Notes under the pieces: generated by a model
Databases searched by the model: none
Told to the model about the DNA's origin: nothing
Seen by the model: only the letters and a program-made list of their open reading frames with translations
Shown: in pieces, positions 20 through 26,913 of the stretch
How the letters are laid out: each line of letters starts with the position of its first letter
Numbering within the stretch: the first letter of the stretch is position 1
Origin: a virus
Length of the DNA: 27,057 bases
Direction: 5' to 3' (one strand)
Virus record (IMG/VR): IMGVR_UViG_3300028374_000485
Location: 1-27,057 of that record
Made by a program: the position numbers and the translations under genes

Positions 20-1156
20 TCAGCCCTCGTCGTTCGCTGTCTGTCCCGACTCTCCACTGTCCGGCGCTCGAAAATTCACGGCAGAGCGCAGGTGGTCCGG
101 GTGGTGGTGCAGGTAGTTGTTCTGGACGGTCGCCATCGTGTCGCCCAGGACACCGGCCAGCTTCCATATATCCACACCGGCCCTCGCCATCAGCGTCGCC
201 GCCGTATGTCGCAGCGCGTGGCGGTTCAACTTCCGGAATCGCGGATTGCCTAGCTCGTCCGCTGCCTCGTTGCATAGCTTATCCATCTGTCGCCTGATCT
301 GGATATTGCTGTCCAGGACAAACTCGCTGGTCTTCTCCTGGTACGCACGTTTCAGGTCCGGCATCAGCCAGTCGGCTATCGGCACCGGCACTCGCCGTTT
401 CTTGGTATCGCCGCCGGTCCGTCGTCCGCTCGCGTCCAGGTCGTATCGAATGAGCCTAGCCTGTAGGTCTACCCGGTGCCAGGTCAGATTCAATATCGAG
501 TTCATCCGAGCCGCCGTGCCCAGGCCCAGTGCCAGGTAACGGTAGGTCCGTGACAGCCTGCCTTTCTCGTCCGTCCGCTTGCGGGCGTAGCGCAGCAGGT
601 CGTCTACTTCCTGCTCGACTAGAAAGAAGTTCGCGGCAGGGGACGACTGCGGCAGGTCCACATACGGCACCTGATCTTTGGTGATGCGATGCCGAGCGTG
701 GGCGTAGTTGCAAGCCGCCTTGAAGCAGGACAACTCCCGGCGCAGGGTGGCCTCGCTGGTACACCGCCGACGTTTGCCGCAAATAGAGCCGTCCATCCGG
801 CGCTTCTTATAGCGCGCCAGTGCCAGGTCGTCTACTTCGTCCAGTGCCAGGTTGCCCAGGCCCATTGCGATCATGCGGGCCGCGTCAGTCTGTCGCTCCA
901 GGTCGGCCATTTTGTGACCGCGCTCGTCCAGGTATTGCTCCAGGATGGTTTGCACCGTCGGCGCCGTCTTGCCCTCGTCGCGCTGGTACTCGGTTAGCCA
1001 TCCAGCGAAAACCTTTTGCGCTTCTTGTATAGATGCCGTCCCTGTTGATAGCCGTTTGCTGCGGGACTGGCCGCGTTGGTCCTTCTCTGTCCACCGGATT
1101 TCGTACAGGCCCCGTGGGTTCCTGTCGAGCCGTGGTCCGTTGTTGGGTCGTGCCAT
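20..1156 (-). CDS. int: Tyrosine-type phage integrase (site-specific recombinase)
   Basis: This 378-aa protein is expected to integrate and excise the phage genome at an attachment site. The N-terminal part (residues about 1-60) is basic and looks like an arm-binding domain. Residues about 65-165 form a core-binding domain, and 175-360 the catalytic domain. Visible catalytic residues are R217 (in GTAARMNSILNLTW), K252/K253, H313 and R316 (HALRHT), H317 and Y348 (VQNNYLHHHPDH). The position that is usually His or Trp two residues after the LG of the last helix is Asp (D339, LGDT). The ATG at 1156 is preceded by AGAGGA at suitable spacing. The gene points away from the replication operon and is the only leftward gene on this side. 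Its stop lies 20 bases from the window edge, so attP/attL is probably just outside or at the edge. Family assignment is firm; the target site is unknown. Confidence 0.93.
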   Translation of the reverse strand: MARPNNGPRLDRNPRGLYEIRWTEKDQRGQSRSKRLSTGTASIQEAQKVFAGWLTEYQRDEGKTAPTVQTILEQYLDERGHKMADLERQTDAARMIAMGLGNLALDEVDDLALARYKKRRMDGSICGKRRRCTSEATLRRELSCFKAACNYAHARHRITKDQVPYVDLPQSSPAANFFLVEQEVDDLLRYARKRTDEKGRLSRTYRYLALGLGTAARMNSILNLTWHRVDLQARLIRYDLDASGRRTGGDTKKRRVPVPIADWLMPDLKRAYQEKTSEFVLDSNIQIRRQMDKLCNEAADELGNPRFRKLNRHALRHTAATLMARAGVDIWKLAGVLGDTMATVQNNYLHHHPDHLRSAVNFRAPDSGESGQTANDEG

Positions 1157-18075: not shown

Positions 18076-18732
18076 TTACCCAGTGATATTTTTGCCGCTG
18101 GACGAGCGGGATGGGTTAGATGCGTAGGCTTGTTCTACCTGCCGACGTGCCGCTGCCCGGTCCTGGCCCACCTGGTAGGCGCCGACTCCGCGCGTAGTCT
18201 GTTCAAACATATTGCCGAGCGGGCTGTAGCGGTCCGTCGTGTTGAGTACGTCCGCCACACTGCCAAGCTGTGACCGGATGGCCGTGGGGTCGGCGGTCGA
18301 CTGAATCAGGCTGGTCAGGTTCGCCCGTTGTCCGGCAACCGCCTCGCGGGCACCGTCCGCAAAGTTATCACCACGGCGGGCTACATCGTCGCGGGCCTGG
18401 GTTAGCTCCCTGTCCAGGGTGCCGAAATCATCCACGGCTGCGGACGAGTTGAGCAGGTTCGCGTCCGCGAGGCCGTAAAGCAGGCCCTCCTGCGCGTCCT
18501 TAAACTGGCGCGTCACCCGTGGGTTGGCGTAGTCCTCGTAAGCGTCCGCGCGCTTGTTGTAAAACCGGTCGTCAAACCCTTCGTAGTATTCGTCGTCTAC
18601 GTAGCCGCCGTCGAAGAATGACTCGACGTCCGACATGCCTTTCTTGATCCGGCGCTCGCGCTTGGCATCCTGTTCTTTCTGATACCGGAGCGAGTCTTCC
18701 GCTGCATCACTTCCGCCGCCGTCACCACACAT
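18076..18732 (-). CDS. Putative virion-associated protein (218 aa)
   Basis: This 218-aa protein starts MCGDGGGSDA and has an acidic Tyr/Asp-rich region (FFDGGYVDDEYYEGFDDRFYNK, about residues 39-60). A long polar helical body with many Ala, Arg and Gln residues follows. Proteins of this type commonly lie between the nozzle and ejection proteins of podoviruses. The ATG shares one base with the stop of the GNAT-like gene (TAATG), and GGAGG lies inside that gene's last codons. The N-terminal Cys is at position 2 without a hydrophobic signal, so it is not a lipoprotein. Exact function is unknown. Confidence 0.72.
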   Translation of the reverse strand: MCGDGGGSDAAEDSLRYQKEQDAKRERRIKKGMSDVESFFDGGYVDDEYYEGFDDRFYNKRADAYEDYANPRVTRQFKDAQEGLLYGLADANLLNSSAAVDDFGTLDRELTQARDDVARRGDNFADGAREAVAGQRANLTSLIQSTADPTAIRSQLGSVADVLNTTDRYSPLGNMFEQTTRGVGAYQVGQDRAAARRQVEQAYASNPSRSSSGKNITG

Positions 18733-19190
18733 TAGCCCACCTCCATAAACATCACGGACCCGGCACGTTTAAAGTTATAACTGCCGAGCTTGTGGACAAA
18801 CTGCTCGTCCGGCGCACCCGCGCTGTTGCAGATCGTGATTCGTCTCGCGCCATTCTCTGCTGCCCACATGCAGAACTTTCTCAGTAGCTGGTCTACCACG
18901 CCGAAAGACGCGCCCCGAAACTGGGGACGGACGAACACCGCTTTGTCTCCGGCCACGATCTCTTGCGAGAAAAACGCCCGCGACAGCTGTCCGCATATTG
19001 CCCCCATTGTATGCTGTTTGTCGTCGGCTAACCAGACAACGCCGGACCGGGACCGGATCAGCCCTCGCATGGTCTCTGTCGTGACCTTCTCGTCAAACGG
19101 CAGCGGACTGAAATTGCTTTCTTCGTGCATCACGCGGGCCATGCTGATCAATGTCGGCATGTCGCGTTCAGTTGCCATCCGGATTTCCAT
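18732..19190 (-). CDS. GNAT-like acetyltransferase at the T7 gp13 position
   Basis: This 152-aa protein reads as a GNAT domain. MEIRMATERDMPTLISMA is the usual first strand and helix, and AVFVRPQFRGASFG (residues 84-97) corresponds to motif A, the acetyl-CoA pyrophosphate loop. The helix GVVDQLLRKFCMWAAENGA follows, then RITICNSAG and the final F..AGSVMFMEV strand. The loop is RGASFG, with Ser where RGxGxG is standard, so binding may be weakened or lost. In T7 the short gene 13 product occupies this same place between nozzle and internal virion proteins and, as I recall, also looks GNAT-like. It could therefore be a structural or assembly protein built on a GNAT fold, not an active enzyme. 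TAATG overlaps join it to both neighbours. Confidence 0.75.
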   Translation of the reverse strand: MEIRMATERDMPTLISMARVMHEESNFSPLPFDEKVTTETMRGLIRSRSGVVWLADDKQHTMGAICGQLSRAFFSQEIVAGDKAVFVRPQFRGASFGVVDQLLRKFCMWAAENGARRITICNSAGAPDEQFVHKLGSYNFKRAGSVMFMEVG

Positions 19191-22137: not shown

Positions 22138-23199
22138 TTAGTTAGCGGGGAAGACCTGTACGACCATAGACGTGTTCAACTGCCGTGCAGTCAGGCCACC
22201 AGCCCAAGTCATTGAGCGGTAGAGAACCATCTTGTCGTGCGGACGAGCGGGGTAGTGCTTCTTCATGTCTTCGCCTTCGATCGGACGAAGTTTGATGTTC
22301 TTCGTGTCGATGAAGTACATGAAGTCGTCACGGCCCAGGTCGTCCAGGGTCGGGTCATACTTGAAAGTGCCCAGTCCTTTCAGACTGATTTCACCCATGC
22401 TGATCTCCTGCTTTCCGCCGAAACCAGATTGGGTGTAGGTGCCTTTCGCGTCGACTTCTTCTTCCAGGCGCTCCAGTGCTTTTGAGCCACACAGGATAAG
22501 AAGGTTCGGGCTACCGTAGCGGCGAAGCTGACGGACCTGCTGACGCAAGAACCGAATCAGCGCGGACGTACCGGTGTTGATGCGGACGCCGTTGCCGGTG
22601 CCAGGTGTGCCGACGAAAGCGCGGTTGCGCCACAACGGCTGTGCGGCACGGTCGATACCGCCAACTACGCCCGTGGTCGGGTCGTCCGCGATAAGGTACT
22701 GGATGCCAGGTACTTCCTTGGAATCCTGGGCGCCGTCCTGCCAAAGCATTTCGTTCATCCCGGAAGACCAACCCTCGGTCATGTCTTCCAGCTTGGTTTC
22801 CAGGATATTCGCCAGCATGGTTAGCTCGCGCTGGTTGTGCATCTTCACGTTCTTGCCGTTGGTATCAACGACCGAAATACCGTCACGGAGCAATTCGTCC
22901 GTGGTCATGTTGATGCCCAGGTGCAGCATCTTCCAGGGGTACTTCGCCTCTTTGATCGGCGTCGGGTTGGTGAAGCTCAGGGTATCGTCGGAGTCGAAGC
23001 CTTCCAGATTGGATTGGGTCTCGAAAATCGGACGAACGGTTAGCTCACCCTTGCCGCCGGGGAACGTCTGTTGGGACGACCGCATAGCGTTAAGCAGTGG
23101 CTTTTCCTGAATGTGTTGGGCAAAGGTCTGACCTCTGTCCATGTGGTAGTCAATCGCAGCGTTAGCTACGTTGTCGATTACGGCTTGAGTCAATGGCAT
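22138..23199 (-). CDS. Major capsid protein
   Basis: This 353-aa protein fits a phage major capsid, presumably of the HK97 fold. It follows the scaffold by 12 bases and precedes the adaptor, as in other podoviruses. The N-terminal arm is helical (MPLTQAVIDNVANAAIDYHM). A region with FPGGKGELTVRPIF is E-loop-like. LRQQVRQLRRYGSPNLLILCG (about residues 213-233) is like the spine helix and P-domain segment. The C-terminal part carries DFMYFIDTKNIKLRPIEG, a common capsid pattern, then a beta ending (MVLYRSMTWAGGL...). GAGGG precedes the ATG. No protease gene is visible, so capsid cleavage is not expected from this window. Confidence 0.85.
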   Translation of the reverse strand: MPLTQAVIDNVANAAIDYHMDRGQTFAQHIQEKPLLNAMRSSQQTFPGGKGELTVRPIFETQSNLEGFDSDDTLSFTNPTPIKEAKYPWKMLHLGINMTTDELLRDGISVVDTNGKNVKMHNQRELTMLANILETKLEDMTEGWSSGMNEMLWQDGAQDSKEVPGIQYLIADDPTTGVVGGIDRAAQPLWRNRAFVGTPGTGNGVRINTGTSALIRFLRQQVRQLRRYGSPNLLILCGSKALERLEEEVDAKGTYTQSGFGGKQEISMGEISLKGLGTFKYDPTLDDLGRDDFMYFIDTKNIKLRPIEGEDMKKHYPARPHDKMVLYRSMTWAGGLTARQLNTSMVVQVFPAN

Positions 23200-23211: not shown

Positions 23212-24300
23212 TTATGACTGATTCGCGGCCTGCTCAATCGCTTGCATGAACGATTCAGGTGGCTGGCCTTGCGCCGAGGAAGTGCTGGTGTCCTGGCTCC
23301 GCGCGCCTGGCTTCACGGCTGGACGAGTGGGCATAGCCGCCTTCAACTCGTCTTTCACTGTCTTGTAGGCTTTTTTCGCCAACTCGACAGCCTGCTCGTT
23401 TGTCCGGGGCGGCTCTTGTTGAACCAGCAACCGCAATTCCTTGGTAACGAAACGCTGAATCCGCTTGTAATCAGGGTCGGTCTTCTGAACGTCCGCCTCC
23501 CAGGAACGAAGCGCGGCCTGTTGGCCTTCGATGATCTGGCGAGCGTTTTCATGCTGCCGGGTTTCCTGATTCTCGCGCTCACGGCGACCGGCACGTTCCG
23601 AAACAAAGTCTTTCTCGTTTCGCAACCGGGCCAACTCTTGTGCGCGGTCCTCAGAAATTGCGCCTTCGTTGACTTCCGTTTGCAGGTCTTCCGGCAACCG
23701 GTAGCCAGCGAACTGATCTAAGCCCTCCATGCGCTTTGCGAGAACTTCCCTGGCTCGCGCCGGGTCATTCTTCATCATGGCTACGACTTGCAGACCGTCC
23801 GCTACTTCCTGAACCGAAAGCTCGTTCTGGTTCATAAACGTCGTGATCTTGTCGTACTCTTGCGCGCGTGGTTCCAGGTTCTCGGCCCGGTCTTTAAAGC
23901 TGTCACGTTCGCGGACCATTTCTTTCCAGCGGGGGTGTTTGTGGAAGGGTTCGGGCTTATCGTCCTTACCATCGGCGGTGTCCTCACCACCCTCGTCCAC
24001 AGCCTCGTCGGACTGGTCCTCGGCGTCTTCATCGTCTTCGTTCTGGTCGTCGTCCGAGTCAGAGTCTTCGCCGTCGGTGTCGTCAGCGTTCTCGTCACCA
24101 TCGGCGGCACGGGTGATGGCATCCAGCAAAGTGCCTGAATCCTCGTCCGCGCTCCCTTCTTCAAACGTGTCAGTGGTGGGCGATTCCGACTGTGTATTAG
24201 CGCCCTCAAGTGCCGTTGACGACTCGGCGGCTACGTCCGGGTTTTCGGTCTGGCTTGCTGATGACGAATCAGCATTATCGTCTCTGTACTCCGGTGGCAT
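23212..24300 (-). CDS. Scaffolding (capsid assembly) protein
   Basis: This 362-aa protein has an Asp/Glu/Ser-rich disordered N-terminus (residues 1-115). PFHKHPRWKEM (118-128), a motif frequent in phage scaffolds, comes next. A long charged helical region (about 130-310) and a basic, Pro/Ser-rich C-terminus follow, with a final short helix (ESFMQAIEQAANQ) of the kind that contacts the capsid. Position directly upstream of the capsid gene is diagnostic. GGAG precedes the ATG. The internal promoter just upstream suggests scaffold and capsid can be transcribed apart from terminase and portal, matching their high copy need. Confidence 0.88.
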   Translation of the reverse strand: MPPEYRDDNADSSSASQTENPDVAAESSTALEGANTQSESPTTDTFEEGSADEDSGTLLDAITRAADGDENADDTDGEDSDSDDDQNEDDEDAEDQSDEAVDEGGEDTADGKDDKPEPFHKHPRWKEMVRERDSFKDRAENLEPRAQEYDKITTFMNQNELSVQEVADGLQVVAMMKNDPARAREVLAKRMEGLDQFAGYRLPEDLQTEVNEGAISEDRAQELARLRNEKDFVSERAGRRERENQETRQHENARQIIEGQQAALRSWEADVQKTDPDYKRIQRFVTKELRLLVQQEPPRTNEQAVELAKKAYKTVKDELKAAMPTRPAVKPGARSQDTSTSSAQGQPPESFMQAIEQAANQS

Positions 24301-24328: not shown

Positions 24329-24358
24329 ATTGTAGGCTTTGTCTGTCCGCTTTATCAA
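24329..24358 (-). promoter_or_regulatory. Internal sigma70-like promoter before scaffold/capsid genes
   Basis: Read leftward: -35 TTGATA (24358-24353, 5 of 6), an 18-base spacer, and -10 TACAAT (24334-24329, 5 of 6). The start would be near 24322, leaving a short leader to the scaffold ATG at 24300. It would boost scaffold, capsid and downstream genes over terminase and portal. Confidence 0.62.
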
Positions 24359-24373
24359 CTTTTTGCGGACAGA
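24342..24373. promoter_or_regulatory. 9-bp inverted repeat overlapping the internal promoter
   Basis: TCTGTCCGC (24342-24350) and GCGGACAGA (24365-24373) are perfect arms with a 14-base AT-rich centre. The -35 box of the internal promoter lies in the centre. It could be an operator, a transcript hairpin ending the upstream Fn3 message, or both; the loop is long and the leftward tail has no U-run. Confidence 0.6.
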
Positions 24374-24766
24374 TCAATCAGGTCCGTAGAAAATAATCAG
24401 TTCCGTTGGGGCGGACGGTCCGGCAATCCACCCGACTTCGACCGGATCACTGGGCAGTGATCGCCGGTTCTCGGTGTCGATTGCGACCATCGAGCAGTCG
24501 TAATTTCCGTATCCGGGTAGCGCGTCCGCCTTGGCAACCGGATACCCATTGCCCTCAACGGTTGCCGGGATCGCGGTTACGACGCCCCCACAGGTCAGTT
24601 CATATCCGGACAGTTCGGTCGCCGGGTCCAGCGGGCTACCGTCCACCCGGGAAGTGGGGGCCTCCCACGACAGTTGGAACTCAGTGTCGGCGGCTTGGGC
24701 CAGTCCGGGGTGGTACAGCAGCCCGACCAGCAGCGCCACCAATGCGCCTTTAAGCAGAGTGATCAT
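24374..24766 (-). CDS. Secreted Fn3-like protein inside the head-assembly cluster
   Basis: This 130-aa protein begins with a Sec signal peptide: K6, a hydrophobic core (about residues 8-18), and AQA (23-25) before ADTEF, giving likely cleavage after A25. The mature part is one beta-sandwich domain of fibronectin type III style: FQLSWEAPTSRVDGSPL, then GYELTCGG, then the late Y..CSMVAIDTENRRSLPSDPVEV. The two Cys (C59, C91) could form a disulfide in the periplasm. Overlap with the portal stop is TGATG, and GGAGG lies in the last portal codons, so it is co-expressed with head genes. Virion proteins rarely carry signal peptides, so a periplasmic or surface role such as superinfection exclusion or cell-envelope binding is possible. 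Function is unproven. Confidence 0.8.
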   Translation of the reverse strand: MITLLKGALVALLVGLLYHPGLAQAADTEFQLSWEAPTSRVDGSPLDPATELSGYELTCGGVVTAIPATVEGNGYPVAKADALPGYGNYDCSMVAIDTENRRSLPSDPVEVGWIAGPSAPTELIIFYGPD

Positions 24767-26913
24767 CAGATTACGCCTCCTTGAACGGGTGAGGACGGCC
24801 CTGCCGGACCTGTTGCCTCGTTATTCGGACCCATGTTGGCGTCCGATTCTGGTGGGCGCTCGGCGTTGTCGCCGCCTTGTCCGCCCTGTGCGTTAGGGTC
24901 GTCCGTGACCGGCTCGACTGGCTTTCCGGCCAGAGAGTTCATGGCCGTGATAGACGGCATCCCGCCGACGTAGGCTTCGGCCAGGTCGATACGGTCGTCC
25001 AGGCGCTCGATTGCTTCGCGGGCCATCCAGTCCGGACTGATACCCGGAATCTGCATCAGCAGTGGCGCCATGCGCTCAAAGTTCTGAATCTCCTGGGCCT
25101 TGTTCGGCTTGCCGGACGAACCGGCGCGAACGGTCAGCCAAAGTTCCTGGGCGATTTCGGACGCGGACAGTTCCGGCCACACCGCACCAGGACCGGCAAT
25201 CTCTTTCACCGTGTCGCTGGATAGCTCAGTCAAAAGAACCTGGCTGGCCGCACGGGCCACGTCGGACAAGAAATCGTCCAGGTCGTCCACGTTGGAGCCG
25301 ATAGACGTGGCGCGGGCTTGCTCGGCGATGCTGCTCTCGGTAGCGGTCGCGCCGGACGTGCCGCCCATGTTCGCTTCCTGGGTGCCTTCGACCTTGAGTA
25401 TGTCGTCAAAGAAGCTGCCAACTTCGTACAGGTTCGGGTCGATGTTGATGAACTGTAGCGGCTGCACCAGGTCGGCAATCCGGTCCCCCGGCTGCATCCC
25501 ATCCAGTTCGACAACAACATGCGCGTCACCGTATTGGAGGTTGGTCTTGTCGTCGCTGGACAACCGTCCCTTGGGCGCTGCGTACTTGGGCCGGTTCGCG
25601 TCCCGATGCTCCCGTAGGCGCTGGCGCGAGACGTTATGCTCGACTTGCATGTGGCGCATAAGGGTTACGTCGGACGGCGGGAACAGGGAGTCCTCGTCCT
25701 CGATAGCGTTGAACACCAGCGGGAAGAACGGGAAGAATTGCTCCAGGCGAACGTAGGGGGCTTCCGGCTCTTGCAGGTAGTCCGGGTATCCGTCCGCGAA
25801 CACGTAGCAGCGGCCCGTGGTCCGGTCGTACAGTTCCCACACGCAGACCTTGTGGCACTCGCCGGGGTTGCCGTCCTCGTCTTTGCTGGCCTTGGCCTGG
25901 GTAGACCCTTCCAGGCGCTTACCCTTTTCGTCGTAGGCGTTAAACGTCGAGTTCTCCAGGTCCACCTTGTAGATGCGCTTCACCTGGTCAGGTGACAGCA
26001 AGAACTCTTGGGCCAACCAACGCGCGCCGATGAAGCCCTGTAGCTGTCGGCAGTCCGGGTCAATGATCAGCGACGTAGCCGGTGGGAAGTCCATGTCCAG
26101 GCCCTCGCGGACGATCATGTCCGGGTTCGCCTGTAGCTGCTCCATCGTCTGTTTCAGTTCTTCCATGCCCGCTTCGTAGTCCGCAATCTCGTCGTCGCGG
26201 GCGTCGGCCATCAACTGCTCCAGGGCCGCAAGCTGTTCGGACACGTCCGATACTCGGTCCGCGTGTTCCGGGCGCTGCTCGTACATGCGGTGGAAACCGA
26301 GCTTGAGGTAGCCGACACCCGTGGTCAGGGTCCGGCGGACCAGTTGCTTCATCTGCGTCTTAAACGTCGGTATCTGCTCGTTCAACTGGTACTCGTAGGT
26401 GACTTCCAGCGTCTTACCAACTTTCTCGATCATCTGCCGCTGCTGGACACCTTTTTGCGCGTCGTCCAGGATGGCGATTTGCTGTTCCAGTCCCGGCATT
26501 ACCAGGGCCAGTTGCTCCATCGGCACCCCTGGGTATTGCTGTTGAATCTGCGTAAGGGCCTGCACCGCCTGGGTCAGCTTGTCCGGGTTGCCGTCCCACA
26601 CCTGAAAGTCCAGGCGCTCCCGGCGCTTGGCAACGGCTTTCGGGTTCTTCGCGTACAGAGAGGCCGTCTTGTTGCTCAGGTGCCGTAGCGTCAGGTTGGC
26701 GACATAGCGTTCTTCAACCACGTCGTTCTGGTCTTCCCACTGAATACCCCGCGCAAACGCCATGTCCTTCCGCATCCCGGAGAAAGCGTTTTCCTCCCAG
26801 TGTGCCTTCGCGGCCTGGATTCGTTTGCACCAGCCGGAGACGTAAGCCGCGCGGGACGCCTTCGGCTTTGGCACCTCCCGTTTCATGTCCTGGTTCTCGG
26901 CGGGCTGGTTCAT
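24766..26913 (-). CDS. Portal (head-tail connector) protein
   Basis: This 715-aa protein is the dodecameric portal through which DNA is packaged and ejected. Its size matches podovirus portals of the P22/T7 kind. Visible patterns include AHWEENAFSGMRKDMAFARGIQWED (residues about 37-61), NLTLRHLSNKTASLYAKNPK (73-92), a long Gln/Glu-rich helical stretch (about 105-290), a central domain with FFPFFPLVFNAIEDEDSLFPPSDV, and VNQPLQFINID-type text near the wing/stem part (DLVQPLQFINIDPNLY). The C-terminus (about 665-715) is Pro/Gly/Asn-rich and disordered. It lies just behind the terminase, and AAGAGG in the preceding gap is a good ribosome site. Exact subfamily is not fixed here. Confidence 0.84.
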   Translation of the reverse strand: MNQPAENQDMKREVPKPKASRAAYVSGWCKRIQAAKAHWEENAFSGMRKDMAFARGIQWEDQNDVVEERYVANLTLRHLSNKTASLYAKNPKAVAKRRERLDFQVWDGNPDKLTQAVQALTQIQQQYPGVPMEQLALVMPGLEQQIAILDDAQKGVQQRQMIEKVGKTLEVTYEYQLNEQIPTFKTQMKQLVRRTLTTGVGYLKLGFHRMYEQRPEHADRVSDVSEQLAALEQLMADARDDEIADYEAGMEELKQTMEQLQANPDMIVREGLDMDFPPATSLIIDPDCRQLQGFIGARWLAQEFLLSPDQVKRIYKVDLENSTFNAYDEKGKRLEGSTQAKASKDEDGNPGECHKVCVWELYDRTTGRCYVFADGYPDYLQEPEAPYVRLEQFFPFFPLVFNAIEDEDSLFPPSDVTLMRHMQVEHNVSRQRLREHRDANRPKYAAPKGRLSSDDKTNLQYGDAHVVVELDGMQPGDRIADLVQPLQFINIDPNLYEVGSFFDDILKVEGTQEANMGGTSGATATESSIAEQARATSIGSNVDDLDDFLSDVARAASQVLLTELSSDTVKEIAGPGAVWPELSASEIAQELWLTVRAGSSGKPNKAQEIQNFERMAPLLMQIPGISPDWMAREAIERLDDRIDLAEAYVGGMPSITAMNSLAGKPVEPVTDDPNAQGGQGGDNAERPPESDANMGPNNEATGPAGPSSPVQGGVI

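Follow-up and report, generated by a model that had tools for sequence, protein, structure and literature searches.

Gene content of the locus

The window analyzed here is a 27,057-nt stretch of viral DNA, positions 1 to 27,057 of the IMG/VR record IMGVR_UViG_3300028374_000485. Between its portal gene and a probable scaffold gene lies a gene for a small protein with a predicted signal peptide and a single fibronectin type III (Fn3) domain (Table 1). A chance open reading frame is ruled out, as a leave-one-out family profile scores the window protein at E = 3e-27. Its ATG starts one base inside the portal stop codon, giving the overlap TGATG, and a Shine-Dalgarno sequence lies 9 nt upstream. 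The initial annotation described the gene as translationally coupled to the portal, and these signals agree; judging by the sequence, we consider it to be coupled.

Table 1. Features at and around the Fn3 gene, in window coordinates
Feature	Position	Strand	Basis
Portal gene, coupled upstream neighbor of the Fn3 gene	24766..26913	-	phrog_12082 portal, E 1.7e-12
Shine-Dalgarno AAGGAGG within last portal codons	24776..24782	-	9 nt before Fn3 ATG; sequence
Signal-peptide single-Fn3 protein, 130 aa	24374..24766	-	ORF; 97-98% identical in L001 and L004
Predicted Sec/SPI signal peptide, residues 1-25, cleavage AQA/A	24692..24766	-	Sequence; rule-based scan; model helix
Fn3 domain, residues 25-116	24419..24694	-	AF2 model; VIA-align; profile search of PDB sequences
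Cys59, possible disulfide partner of Cys91	24590..24592	-	Both kept in L103, L104, L108, L064, L107
Cys91, possible disulfide partner of Cys59	24494..24496	-	Joint conservation with Cys59
Inverted repeat CTGTCCGC/GCGGACAG (24343-24372) and promoter	24329..24372	-	Spacer conserved in L005
Probable scaffold gene	23212..24300	-	Precedes major head protein; acidic composition
Major head protein	22138..23199	-	phrog_9953, E 1.8e-44

Directly upstream of its terminase and portal genes, the window's phage carries a holin-like gene, an M15 endolysin, a lipoprotein and an alpha/beta-hydrolase; in L004 the first two occupy positions 456-1359. On the other side, a sigma70-like promoter (TTGATA-18-TACAAT) precedes the scaffold gene, and this promoter-like site separates the Fn3 gene from the capsid genes. 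With lysis genes upstream of the terminase and portal and a promoter after the Fn3 gene, the Fn3 gene appears to belong to a lysis-terminase-portal unit and not to the capsid unit. The initial annotation had called a secreted product out of place among head genes; the product still looks secreted, and the apparent misplacement is largely accounted for by this operon layout.

The -35 box of the scaffold promoter lies inside a perfect 8-bp inverted repeat. The core of this repeat, GTCCGCAAAAAGTTGATA, occurs in only 3 IMG/VR contigs, all in the window's phage group, and the repeat is possibly an operator or an RNA processing hairpin. The probable scaffold gene itself matched none of the PHROGs or Pfam families. 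Further along, the structural module contains a GNAT acetyltransferase gene (18732-19190, minus strand, phrog_1249), and Microcystis phage Mae-Yong1326-1 has an annotated N-acetyltransferase in the equivalent position. At the contig end, a phage integrase-like open reading frame (20-1156, minus strand) was noted from sequence, suggesting that the window's phage is a temperate member of the group that contains Rhizobium phage RHph_N65 and Mae-Yong1326-1.

Export signal and fold

The N-terminus of the Fn3 protein has K6, followed by an uncharged hydrophobic core to L17, AQA at 23-25 and A26, so that the signal ends LLYHPGLAQA/A. In the AlphaFold2 model this region is a low-confidence helix (residues 3-17). 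Our rule-based signal scan accepts the window protein, and the Sec signal with an AQA site that had been described earlier is upheld as a prediction of export and cleavage. With any in-frame Met accepted as the start, the same scan passes 24/33 family members, compared with 42/374 other open reading frames on the same contigs; from the called starts the figures are 19/33 and 26/374. We looked for a lipobox in the signal and found none; the Y-C of the variants L001 and L004 is not a lipobox. A lipoprotein superinfection-exclusion factor of the Llp or Cor type was rejected on this ground.

The mature window protein is one Fn3 domain followed by a hydrophobic C-terminal tail. The structure prediction that the initial annotation had proposed gives this domain with a mean pLDDT of 85.1 (AlphaFold2, 25-sequence alignment). 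In VIA-align, all of the top rows shown are Fn3 domains (Z 7.0-7.9 over ~75-85 residues), and among PDB sequences a profile built from alignment A3 of the family hits Fn3 domains of solved structure, including FN3con (1.1e-5) and titin Fn3. Both the single Fn3-like domain and the two cysteines of the initial annotation are thus confirmed. Cys59 and Cys91 occur together in 7/25 aligned members, those nearest the window protein, and possibly form a disulfide.

Presence and absence among close relatives

Two further IMG/VR contigs, L001 and L004, have the Fn3 gene at the same place. A third, L005 (portal identity 77%), has no Fn3 gene between portal and scaffold and keeps the 73-nt portal-scaffold spacer, promoter included, almost unchanged, which indicates that the gene is accessory and, as read from the sequences, was cleanly inserted or lost. 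The gene is absent from portal relatives at 77% identity and below, and from RHph_N65 and Mae-Yong1326-1 at this position, and a profile search of the distant relatives' records, several of which are fragments, found no copy elsewhere. The location between portal and scaffold therefore holds for the window's phage and not for related phages, which carry no gene there. A conserved head gene of the phage group was rejected because of these relatives.

As in a phage moron in the strict sense, the extra gene is absent in close relatives (L005 and all others). It does not have a promoter and terminator of its own: its start is coupled to the portal, no promoter lies ahead of it, and the only one nearby is the downstream promoter for scaffold. 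A recently acquired passenger gene, without a fixed role and tolerated between the portal and the scaffold promoter, would explain why all relatives with portal identity of 77% or less do not have it, why the insertion is clean with the scaffold spacer left as is, and why the gene shows no synonymous-rich pattern. We nevertheless find this unlikely, since the reading frame is undamaged, as are the signal, the Fn3 core, both cysteines and the strong ribosome site, and the family is widespread in phages.

Among the three variants, the Fn3 gene has 4-5 nonsynonymous and 0 synonymous changes, compared with 1 and 19 in the portal and 4 and 1 in the neighboring scaffold gene. Given how few the changes are and that scaffold is similar, we do not claim diversifying selection. 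The pattern bears on another explanation, superinfection exclusion or receptor masking at the periplasm or cell surface, in which the exported protein would block the receptor or the route of DNA entry and so protect the infected cell or prevent released progeny from binding to debris. An exported accessory protein that varies in presence between close relatives and whose changes all alter amino acids, next to a portal with mostly silent ones, would suit this role, as would the related single-Fn3 lipoproteins in host-type bacteria such as Marinobacter. The amino-acid changes are not specific, however, as scaffold has them too; the protein has no lipobox and no membrane anchor besides the signal, and its position points to expression late in infection, while temperate phages as a rule express their exclusion genes in the prophage state. 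On balance we regard exclusion as somewhat improbable. Of the envelope role suggested in the initial annotation, export and a function outside the head fit our results, and nothing found points specifically to superinfection exclusion.

A family of putatively exported single-Fn3 proteins in phages

The window protein alone has no match in Pfam, even at E 10, and nothing below E 0.09 in PHROGs. Searching annotated phages by tblastn with it and its homologs gave no useful relative: L109 found one weak Fn3 protein in MW202510, and L114 found only minor tail proteins, mostly from actinophages. The family was recovered by combining a DNA motif scan for W[ED]xPTxxxDGxP with a profile. About 35 distinct phage contigs carry related single-Fn3 proteins, mostly of 100-170 aa, most with an N-terminal export signal by the rule-based scan, and often ending in P-x-x-P-x-hydrophobic. 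Because the core motif was derived from the window protein, it is not independent evidence for the family; full-length identity, which reaches 49% in the closest member, L103, is independent sequence evidence. The predicted fold and the family profile connect these proteins to the fibronectin type III domain (PF00041), in contrast to the window protein itself, which has no Pfam match; the member L114 scores 24.1 bits against PF00041, for which the cut-off is 25 bits.

That the Fn3 fold is common and that phages export proteins is already known. Within the set of papers that our literature search covered, we found no description of exported single-Fn3 phage proteins of this kind. Neither Pfam nor PHROGs names the family, yet dozens of phage contigs encode members, frequently next to lysis genes.

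A genome scan gave host-type lipoproteins and weak matches only. Single-Fn3 lipoproteins with the family motif are encoded on the chromosomes of Marinobacter confluentis (L120 6758-7252, beside a polA-like gene) and Hahella (L123 6550-6981). They share with the window protein a W-E/D-x-P-T-T-R-E-D-G core, export and a single Fn3 domain, and differ in having a lipobox-like signal and a chromosomal context, whereas the window protein has no lipobox and is found in a phage. We also observed three small Fn3 genes in tandem on one 74.6-kb phage contig (L116 5425-6678), whose products have export- or lipoprotein-like N-termini.

Association with lysis genes

In L103 the order is endolysin (phrog_315, 9.5e-48), holin-like gene, Rz1-like lipoprotein, Fn3 gene, where the endolysin has a family match and the holin-like and Rz1-like labels were read from sequence. 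In L104 the Fn3 gene sits between an M15 endolysin and an alpha/beta-hydrolase, both homologous to genes in the lysis region of the window's phage (41% identity, E 4e-28, and 28% identity, E 1e-17). An M15 endolysin is two genes away in L114, and in G030 an Amidase_2 gene lies 39 bp upstream.

We tested this association over 37 whole records, with the G027 record treated as circular on account of its 127-bp terminal repeat. Of the 11 records with a detected endolysin, 9 have it no more than 4.5 kb from the Fn3 gene, where random positions would give 3.0 (p ~1e-4); the test rests on these 11, as the other 26/37 yielded no endolysin. For three of the four models that made up the main endolysin set, the choice was made after the neighbors of four members had been seen. 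With generic Pfam models alone (PF00959, PF08291 and PF01510), the count is 6/8 (p ~0.006); PF11860 gave no matches, controls included. The nearby endolysins are on the same strand as the Fn3 gene in every case. Some members adjoin tail-appendage, terminase or head genes (L064, L091/L136 and L105 tail-appendage or head), so the lysis link is a tendency and not a rule.

That relatives in unrelated phages tend to adjoin lysis genes makes the Fn3 protein probably an envelope accessory and not a head protein. The initial annotation had also offered a virion decoration, which could keep its N-terminus or be attached as the mature protein after export. The gene does lie between the portal and the probable scaffold, and virions and tail proteins commonly carry Ig-like and Fn3 domains. 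Most family members have an export signal, however, related capsid modules lack such a gene, the reading unit ends ahead of the scaffold promoter, and relatives are near lysis genes. Decoration is without support here and very improbable, the weakest of the rival explanations; the chief ones are a passenger gene of neutral effect and superinfection exclusion.

Proposed role and comparison with known systems

Our best explanation, which we put forward tentatively from sequence, is that the Fn3 protein is an accessory product of the late phase that is exported to the envelope of the host and functionally grouped with the lysis genes. It would be translated by coupling to the portal in the lysis-terminase-portal unit, presumably co-transcribed with that unit and expressed late with it. 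Sec would export it and signal peptidase I is predicted to cut after AQA25, upon which the protein would fold in the periplasm as one predicted Fn3 sandwich, perhaps held by a Cys59-Cys91 bond. There it would most likely bind a periplasmic lysis component (holin, spanin or peptidoglycan) and, much like the T4 antiholin RI, adjust when lysis occurs or how complete it is. Points against a role in lysis, besides the members near tail-appendage or head genes, are that in the window's phage 4.5 kb, with the large terminase and portal genes, lie between the Fn3 gene and the endolysin, and that near relatives of the phage manage without it.

We are more doubtful about extending this to the Sec-exported single-Fn3 proteins of unrelated phages as a family of periplasmic lysis regulators or factors needed for complete lysis. 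If it is true, these proteins would be a component of lysis that has escaped notice, and T4 RI would have a counterpart open to testing; as regulators they may be a second solution to the task of RI, unrelated to it.

RI has a cleavable signal peptide and acts in the periplasm (PMC8385771), and the Fn3 protein resembles it as a small, putatively periplasmic phage protein with a predicted Sec signal and a proposed late role in lysis. The partner of RI, the holin T, is proven, whereas for the Fn3 protein both the partner and the direction in which it would act are inferred. The likeness would be one of manner of working and not of family membership, and we claim no sequence relationship; RI is not known to be an Fn3 protein.

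The spanins Rz/Rz1 and u-spanin are small exported products of lysis cassettes in Gram-negative phages (PMC6139136). The Fn3 protein is likewise small and predicted to be exported, but its mature part, one Fn3 domain, has no lipobox, transmembrane or coiled-coil segment, and L103 carries an Rz1-like lipoprotein gene in addition to the Fn3 gene. An o-, i- or u-spanin was rejected given the absence of a lipobox or transmembrane helix and the single-domain mature part.

Homologous alpha/beta-hydrolase genes are found downstream of an M15 endolysin in the unrelated phages L004 (1625-2182) and L104 (2760-3371), and possibly encode an envelope lipase for lysis.
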